A stretch of 62,787 bases of DNA from Clostridiales bacterium (GTDB taxonomy: Bacteria; Bacillota; Clostridia; Oscillospirales; CAG-382), in assembly GCA_016286245.1 (NCBI GenBank), contig JAEESG010000003.1:1-62787 (forward strand), in the 5' to 3' direction. How positions within the stretch are numbered: the first letter of the stretch is position 1; each line of letters begins with the position of its first letter. Shown in pieces: positions 37,087-57,900 of the stretch. A program made the translations under genes and the position numbers. The notes beneath the pieces are model-generated. The model did no database searches. It saw nothing but the letters and a program-made list of their open reading frames with translations, and was not told the origin of the DNA.

Positions 37087-37130
37087 AAAAAAAGAGCATA
37101 ACAGAGCCCGAAAACTGCTCTGTTATGCCC
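37087..37130 (-). terminator. Riboswitch expression-platform terminator upstream of purE
   Basis: GCATAACAGAGC/GCTCTGTTATGC stem followed by a T-run; the 5' arm overlaps the 3' GGGCA of the aptamer. Confidence 0.9.
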
Positions 37131-37210
37131 AGACGGTCGGCATTAAGAATCATTTTAATCTTTGCTCCCCAGCAGTGCTCTGCATTTCTCCGTCAGTAAC
37201 AAAGATTATA
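37125..37210 (-). ncRNA. ZTP (pfl motif, ZMP/ZTP-sensing) riboswitch aptamer
   Basis: Minus strand: AATCTTTGTTACTGACGG...GGGGAGCAAAGATT...ATGCCGACCGTCTGGGCA. The 3' CCGNCYGGGCA element and upstream stem match the pfl architecture; located ahead of a de novo purine operon. Confidence 0.85.
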
Positions 37211-55331: not shown

Positions 55332-55393
55332 ATCATACTACCGTTTTTTGAAAAAGTCAATAGCGGATAATAAAAAAGCACGCCGAAATCAAT

Positions 55394-55682
55394 CTGTTCT
55401 AAAGGACAGTATATAAAAACCCGGCTGAAGTAAGGAGTCGAATCCTTATTTCAGCCGGTTTTTTGTCGCAAACCTCTGTAAGCAGGACGTTTGTGTGCCA
55501 AACGTCAAAGAAACGATTACGGTTATAAGTTATGATTTACGGCAAAAGCCGCAAAGTTATGATATGAGCTCCGCCAACGTGCCGCAGGCACTCATAACCT
55601 GCAGAGCAATCATAACGCGCGTCAGCGCTCATAACGTTCCGCATCAGCGGAACTCATAACTGCCGACTGTCCTTTGGAACAG
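55394..55682. repeat. Hairpin array 1: short palindromes joined by GTTATG/CATAAC linkers, bounded by inverted CTGTTC(T/C)AAAGGACAG
   Basis: Left half GTTATA/GTTATG at 55522, 55529, 55556; right half CATAAC at 55593, 55611, 55630, 55655; hairpins such as TGCCgcaGGCA and TTCCGCatcaGCGGAA; ends 55394-55409 and 55667-55682. Confidence 0.75.
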
Positions 55683-55712
55683 TCGGCGTACGGCGGCTTT
55701 TTTTAAATTTAA

Positions 55713-57240: not shown

Positions 57241-57316
57241 GGGGGGTTAGCTCAGCTGGGAGAGCATCTGCCTTACAAGCAGAGGGTCATAGGTTCGAGC
57301 CCTATACCCCCCACCA
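57241..57316 (+). tRNA. tRNA-Val (anticodon UAC), CCA encoded
   Basis: Cloverleaf: GGGGGGT acceptor, TTAGCTCAGCTGGGAGAGCA D-arm, CTGCCTTACAAGCAG anticodon arm, ATAGGTTCGAGCCCTAT T-arm, CCA end. Confidence 0.97.
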
Positions 57317-57318
57317 TG

Positions 57319-57348
57319 AAAAAGGCAAGTCGAAAGACTTGCCTTTTT
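57319..57348 (+). terminator. tRNA-Val terminator
   Basis: AAAGGCAAGTC gaaa GACTTGCCTTT + TT. Confidence 0.9.
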
Positions 57349-57589
57349 CAATGATATCCGTTCCTTACGGAACGGGTGATATATGCTTTGCATATGATAT
57401 ACCCTTCGGGTATGATATACGCCTGCGGCGTATTGAGGAACGGATATTATTTCATGTTGCGACGAAGGAGCAATATATCATACGGCTTTCGCCGTATATC
57501 ATATCGCTTTGCGATATATCATTAAAATGCAAGGCAAGTCTTTCGACTTGCCTTTTTCAATGATATCCGTTCCTTTCGGAACGGTCGGG
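57322..57589. repeat. Hairpin array 2: TGATAT/ATATCA-linked short palindromes flanked by ~55-bp near-identical direct repeats
   Basis: Flank copies 57322-57376 and 57531-57589 (offset 209). Between them TATGCtttGCATA, TACCCttcGGGTA, TACGCCtgcGGCGTA, ATACGGCtttcGCCGTAT, ATCGCtttGCGAT; outer ATATCCGTTCC/GGAACGGATAT. Confidence 0.8.
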
Positions 57590-57900
57590 AGCCCCGACGG
57601 GCAATTCCGCGCACAAATTGCGCTTAAAATATCTGCTCTTGTGCTCGCGGAGAGGTTTTTACTTAAAAATCGGCAAAAGGGTGCGCCTGCGGGCGCAATC
57701 GGGAGCCCCGACGGGCAATTCCGCGCACAAATTGCGCTTAAAATATCTGCTCTTGTGCTCGCGGCGAGGCTTTTACTTAAAAATCGGCAAAAGGGAGCGC
57801 CTGCGGGCGCAATCGGGAGCCCCGACGGGCAATTCCGCGCACAAATTGCGCTTAAATTATTGGTTTTTTATGCACGCGGAGAAGCTATTTATATAAAAGA
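57585..57900. repeat. 114-bp tandem repeat, two full copies plus a degenerate third
   Basis: TCGGGAGCCCCGACGGGCAATTCCGCGCACAAATTGCGCTTAAA begins at 57585, 57699 and 57813. Confidence 0.95.

Follow-up and report, generated by a model that had tools for sequence, protein, structure and literature searches.

What kind of genetic element is the array of short hairpins that directly follows a tRNA-Val gene on contig JAEESG010000003.1 of a Clostridiales bacterium (GenBank assembly GCA_016286245.1; Oscillospirales, CAG-382)? We analyzed positions 1 to 62,787 of this contig (62,787 nt; hereafter the window), for which a preliminary description had reported two such arrays. The stretch 57351–57522 is probably a non-autonomous copy, resembling a miniature inverted-repeat transposable element (MITE), of a mobile element of the S23 or 23S rRNA intervening sequence (IVS) type, located behind the tRNA-Val terminator. 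Mobility of the arrays and their linkage to S23 genes are well supported, and the mechanism connecting S23 with the repeated linkers of the array is a proposal. The best reading is therefore an S23/IVS-type element in a new hairpin-array form, which we did not find described in the open-access literature searched (preprints not covered). In the following, G numbers denote genomes of relatives, L numbers denote individual loci, and linkers are named by class. The features of the locus are:

57241–57316, + strand: tRNA-Val (TAC), the host gene 5′ of the insertion point (ARAGORN; Rfam tRNA, 70.9 bits).
57317–57350, + strand: intrinsic terminator hairpin of tRNA-Val, TGAAAAAGGCAAGTC-GAAA-GACTTGCCTTTTTCA (inverted repeat 15/15, ending in a T run).
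57351–57418, + strand: left half, with heptamer linkers L0–L3 and hairpins h1–h3.
57351–57357, 57376–57382, 57394–57400, and 57412–57418, + strand: linkers L0–L3, (A/G)TGATAT.
57358–57375, + strand: hairpin h1.
57381–57395, + strand: hairpin h2.
57399–57413, + strand: hairpin h3.
57417–57433, + strand: hairpin h4, ATACGCC-TGC-GGCGTAT.
57437–57447, + strand: centre, GGAACGGATAT, reverse complement of the linker tail and the 5′ arm of h1.
57449–57522, − strand: right half, the left-half module on the opposite strand, with R1–R4 and h5–h7.
57449–57454 (ATTTCA), 57475–57481, 57496–57502, and 57516–57522: inverted linkers R1–R4, of which R2–R4 are ATATCAT.
57457–57473: hairpin h5, weak (4 bp).
57480–57497: hairpin h6.
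57501–57517: hairpin h7.
57523–57530, + strand: short tail, TAAAATGC, the site of the promoter and S23 gene in full-length copies.
57531–57584, + strand: second copy of the terminator hairpin, L0, and h1, with flipped loops.
55371–55705, − strand: array 1, a sister element with linker TTATGA (array core 55530–55659).

The array starts immediately 3′ of the T run and proceeds in the order terminator-L0-h1-L1-h2-L2-h3-L3-h4-centre-R1-h5-R2-h6-R3-h7-R4. The first flank hairpin had been proposed to double as the tRNA terminator, which held true: 57317–57350, with its T run, lies behind a confirmed tRNA-Val gene. The preliminary description had counted at least five stems; these are real, and the sharper count is seven, including the weak h5. 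It had also assigned TGATAT linkers to the left and ATATCA linkers to the right, which applies to all four linkers on the left and to three on the right, the fourth right linker being ATTTCA. The proposed outer stem, ATATCCGTTCC / GGAACGGATAT, was found as well, with the centre as its 3′ side. Since the linker tail and the h1 5′ arm recur in the centre as their reverse complement, this arm has two alternative partners. Centres matched the h1 arm of their own element over a mean of 10.1 nt, compared to 5.7 nt for the arms of other elements. The near-identical flanks with reverse-complementary first loops correspond to a 54-nt direct repeat (57322–57375 and 57531–57584; 91% identity), whose differences are confined to two loops (GAAA/TTTC and TTAC/TTTC), and 57317–57345 and 57531–57559 are perfect 29-nt inverted repeats. 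The copy at 57531–57584 looks like the beginning of another, truncated array or like a local duplication; tandemly arranged array starts also occur in L064, L066, and L072. Directly 3′ of this copy, at 57585–57860, lies a tandem 114-nt unit (2.4 copies, 97% identical) in which one frame is open. Folding of a 178-nt stretch exceeds chance, with z-values of −6.0 (DNA) and −6.6 (RNA), and 0 of 200 shuffles folded equally well.

Array 1 follows the same design with another linker (TTATGA at 55530–55659), as had been noted, and its flanks are copies of an ACTGTCC..GGACAGT-type inverted repeat. The suggestion of a whole family of bipartite hairpin arrays was borne out by at least eight linker classes that share one plan (TGAAAT, TGATAT, TGATG, TGAAG, TGAATT, TTATGA, CTAAAT, and GTAAAT). 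These classes were obtained from a linker-blind search for a repeated 6-mer followed by its reverse complement, and from the regions upstream of S23 genes; the search presupposes the reverse complement on the right, and the left/right rule itself rests on the S23 loci. Most arrays carry three to four linkers per side. Linkers are constant within a class, and the hairpin stems differ by changes that compensate each other. We counted covariation separately for each hairpin slot, since hairpins fall out of register when a class is aligned globally. In the slots of the TGAAA and TGATA arrays, several to all four Watson–Crick pair types occur per position, and the observed pairing was reached by 0 of 500 permutations. 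On the top strand, the left half holds 51 TTCG-type loops and no CGAA loop, and the right half holds 1 TTCG-type loop and 23 CGAA loops. These mirrored loops identify the two halves as the same module on opposite strands. A stretch of ~70 nt (..GAGTTCGAATTCATACG..AAATATCTTTTTTGTAGCCCATAGACA) is shared behind R4 in L023, L025, L029, L066, and L070, which comprise arrays of two linker classes.

Intergenic, multicopy pairs of inverted hairpin modules, with a short conserved motif at the base of the hairpin, are also typical of repetitive extragenic palindromic (REP) sequences and bacterial interspersed mosaic elements (BIME). If the arrays were of this type, they would be moved by an HUH transposase (Y1; REP-associated tyrosine transposase, RAYT) that reads hairpins on single-stranded DNA. 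We consider this extremely improbable. The repeats are 7-nt linkers that differ between classes, with four per module, and they are accompanied by S23 instead of a Y1 transposase. As a driver, Y1 was rejected: Y1_Tnp (PF01797) was detected in only 8 of 24 array-rich relatives, and in none of, e.g., G020, G022, G039, G047, and G059; one Y1 gene is present in G000. Known REP or MITE ends had been named beforehand as the competing explanation, and the REP/RAYT explanation is unsupported.

Both halves of the array match a known family. The left half (57349–57423, + strand) matches Rfam Gut-1 (RF01706) with 60.3 bits, over the gathering score of 50, and the right half (57444–57524, − strand) matches it with 35.7 bits (E 3e-5), under this score. 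The Gut-1 matches in the window's genome form five inverted, convergent pairs. Gut-1 corresponds to half of a palindromic element, and its model covers chiefly the TGAAAT and TGATAT classes rather than every linker class. Matches were found in 39 of 60 relatives, so the array is recurrent; a single occurrence had been set out beforehand as speaking against a family. Among 300 genomes across the phylum, a match occurred in one genome outside the order, besides the window's genome and one same-order genome. The original description of Gut-1, from human gut metagenomes, classes it as a certain RNA that is not cis-regulatory and has no known function (PMC2864571; also Rfam). This listing, the UUCG-type loops common in the left half, and the RNA folding z-value would agree with a trans-acting structured noncoding RNA as originally described. 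However, features mirrored on both strands are inexplicable by one RNA strand, the array starts behind terminators, up to 48 matches occur per genome, insertions are polymorphic, and linkers switch class as a set. A noncoding RNA is thus a very improbable explanation.

Comparison of relatives, which had been proposed as a check, revealed differences in insertion. In the congeners G012 and G023, the tRNA-Val gene, the terminator, and the downstream flank are nearly identical; in G023, a TGATAT array sits between the tRNA-Val terminator and a TGAAAT array shared with G012, and 12 nt of the old h1 arm are gone. The congener G003 shares 97% identity with the window over tRNA-Val and terminator, including an identical terminator hairpin, and its array at this locus belongs to the TGAAAT class (84 of 146 positions identical to the window array). 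The closest array among those compared lies behind a different tRNA in G039, a member of another family (145 of 172 identical). In G006 and G018, a similar stem (GCAAGTC/GACTTGC) follows tRNA-Val, with no array behind it, and array 1 is missing from the corresponding place in G003. These comparisons show movement between loci and between host families, and they support mobility of the arrays well. Several MITE traits are present, i.e., the elements are multicopy, short, and geneless, with an inverted-repeat organization and presence or absence between relatives. Two exact array patterns, used to look for phage carriage, matched nothing in viral contigs; an array together with S23 is present in two unverified faecal “phage” records.

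Arrays had been expected near tRNA genes and terminators. A strict intrinsic terminator lies directly 5′ of the array start in 41 of 64 oriented arrays (random positions: 4.7%), and several exceptions to the strict rule have slightly imperfect hairpins. Group IIC introns target sites 3′ of intrinsic terminators, and S23 belongs to the accessory protein family of diversity-generating retroelements. Both points would fit a retroelement, in which a group IIC intron-like insertion behind terminators depends on a reverse transcriptase acting in trans. This explanation is highly improbable and, barring a very divergent reverse transcriptase, largely refuted in these genomes. RVT_1 (PF00078), tried as the driver, was detected in no more than 9 of the 24 array-rich relatives; the genomes without it include G000, G020, G022, G025, G039, G047, and G059. 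An Rfam scan of the window gave no match to an intron family. Integron attC cassettes resemble the elements in that structure is conserved over sequence and accessory genes are attached; the anatomy differs from that of both attC cassettes and group IIC introns.

A gene linked to the arrays became apparent in longer copies. Several arrays run into a promoter followed by a gene of the S23/23S_rRNA_IVP family (PF05635), which encodes a four-helix bundle (a relative has the solved structure 2rld) and is known mainly from rRNA insertions. In L310 and L346, a complete TGATAT array is followed behind R4 by promoter-like sequence and an S23 start codon, all 3′ of a tRNA gene and terminator. This form is likely the parent type of the window copy, whose tail (57523–57530) lacks both promoter and S23 gene. 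The genes behind S23 are varied; on visual inspection, some look like acetyltransferase, methyltransferase, and nucleotidyltransferase genes. Of 98 S23 genes, 48 have an array whose end lies no more than 140 nt from the gene start, and a further 24 adjoin tandem heptamers (lag-7 repeats; background 0.7%), with no comparable signal upstream of S23 at periods 4–6 or 8–10. These are strict counts, the remaining group without either holds many degenerate arrays by eye, and a minority of the 98 genes stem from loci first fetched for their arrays. S23 was present in all 24 relatives with at least eight Gut-1 matches, compared to 8 of 21 relatives with none.

In a tree of 92 S23 proteins, linker labels required 20 changes, compared to 55.1 for shuffled labels (reached in 0 of 200 shuffles), and host genus required 54. 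Ten TGAAAT S23s form one clade (support 97) that spans host families f1, f8, and f24. Linker class tracks the S23 tree, not the host. Linker and S23 are therefore inherited together and move together between hosts, which fits, but does not prove, that S23 might recognize the linkers. Alternatively, the array could be an operator or attenuator through which S23 represses itself, with arrays lacking S23 as leftovers moved by an unrelated route. The end of the array at the S23 promoter in full-length copies and the match between S23 clade and linker class would suit such regulation. Most arrays, however, have no S23 behind them and yet keep paired stems and linkers, and inverted heptamer arrays bracket many S23 genes on both sides, an arrangement better suited to the ends of an element. 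We regard the operator as unlikely.

Where an S23 gene has no hairpin array, tandem heptamers often bracket it; in clear cases, a word upstream is matched by its reverse complement downstream. Among 16 named plasmid S23 loci from four phyla, 12 have period-7 repeats and none has repeats at periods 4–6 or 8–11; loci with heptamer brackets include those of Nostoc, Dolichospermum, Euhalothece, Treponema, and Bernardetia. The 23S rRNA IVS of Coxiella has terminal inverted repeats and three tandem heptamers before the S23 start (PMC4990558). Heptanucleotide repeats are over-represented in bacteria such as Nostoc, Xanthomonas, and Calothrix, with no detailed account (PMC4692102). Those repeats are likewise tandem with period 7, occur also as inverted pairs, and bracket Nostoc S23 genes in our dataset; they differ in having no hairpins between units, and S23 is not mentioned in that report. 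The hairpin arrays have the appearance of heptamer arrays into which hairpins were inserted from one unit to the next. The rRNA insertions with an S23p open reading frame (Coxiella, Leptospira) share with the element family the S23/IVP gene, the selfish, hairpin-associated insertion, and the heptamers next to S23, the window linkers being 7-mers of the L310/L346 class. The window element differs by its position behind a tRNA terminator instead of in helix loops of 23S rRNA, by heptamers that alternate with hairpins and form two inverted modules, and by its lack of S23. These likenesses suggest that Gut-1, the rRNA insertions, and many bacterial 7-nt repeats belong together. More broadly, S23 may be the core of a widespread, unrecognized class of mobile elements that are bounded by inverted arrays of a 7-nt word and use no conventional transposase, with Gut-1, 23S rRNA IVS, the hairpin arrays of this order, and cyanobacterial heptanucleotide repeats as its forms or remains; we put this forward tentatively, as somewhat short of an even chance.

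Further observations relate to individual S23 loci. In the heptamer-class elements of L326, L340, L349, L337, L339, and L351 (regions upstream of S23), the terminator hairpin that precedes the arrays takes the role of h1: its 3′ arm is repeated in the centre that separates the two inverted heptamer arrays. In L139 (G015), 17 nt of the 5′ end of tRNA-Leu (TATACGCGGGTATGGCG) seem to be directly duplicated on either side of a heptamer-class S23 element that lies 5′ of this gene. On plasmids of Nostoc sp. TCL26-01 and Anabaena cylindrica, cas2 and cas1 flank the S23 gene, and in Pseudanabaena galeata S23 adjoins cas1 (L388, L390, and L403). In L399, L400, and L402, S23 has DUF1156 or helicase-related genes on one side and Swt1-HEPN or N6-methylase genes on the other, which gives the impression of an insertion into defence operons.

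How could such an element move? It is built from a single module that is present twice, once on each strand, and each module has four 7-nt linkers with short hairpins between them. In full-length copies, a promoter and S23 gene follow the second module, frequently together with additional accessory genes. We propose that the S23 four-helix-bundle ring, supplied by a full-length copy, would recognize the cognate heptamer exposed by the hairpins, either on extruded single-stranded or cruciform DNA or on a transcript. Binding to both inverted modules could bring the ends of the element together, and host enzymes might then join it to a target with secondary structure, with a preference for the base of terminator hairpins 3′ of tRNA genes.

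Several points weigh against the window array being a copy of an S23-type mobile element. That S23 binds the linkers, and that it promotes movement, we infer from sequences rather than from experiments, and we know of no catalytic site in S23. Inheritance of S23 and array as one unit would give the same signal in the tree, and the position of the array is also operator-like relative to S23. S23 adjoins only 4 of 51 Gut-1-sampled arrays. In the window's genome, two S23 genes were detected, both of the heptamer class and outside the TGATAT clade, so that genome (assembly 95% complete) holds no cognate helper for the window copy. A direct repeat of terminator and h1 is present in the window copy, but the 3′ part of the terminator recurs downstream in only 3–4 of 60 elements, i.e., there is no consistent target-site duplication.

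If the S23-type element is the correct explanation, the Gut-1 “RNA family” becomes half of a mobile element, S23 proteins, whose structure is solved and whose function is unknown, gain a testable role, and the over-represented heptamer repeats of bacteria receive an explanation. With linkers fixed, hairpins free to covary, and the clade of the partner protein following the linker, the design would amount to a ready-made specificity code, and the accessory genes behind arrays would make the elements relevant to horizontal transfer. Elsewhere in the window, a ZMP/ZTP riboswitch was identified at 37120–37210 on the − strand (64.7 bits).
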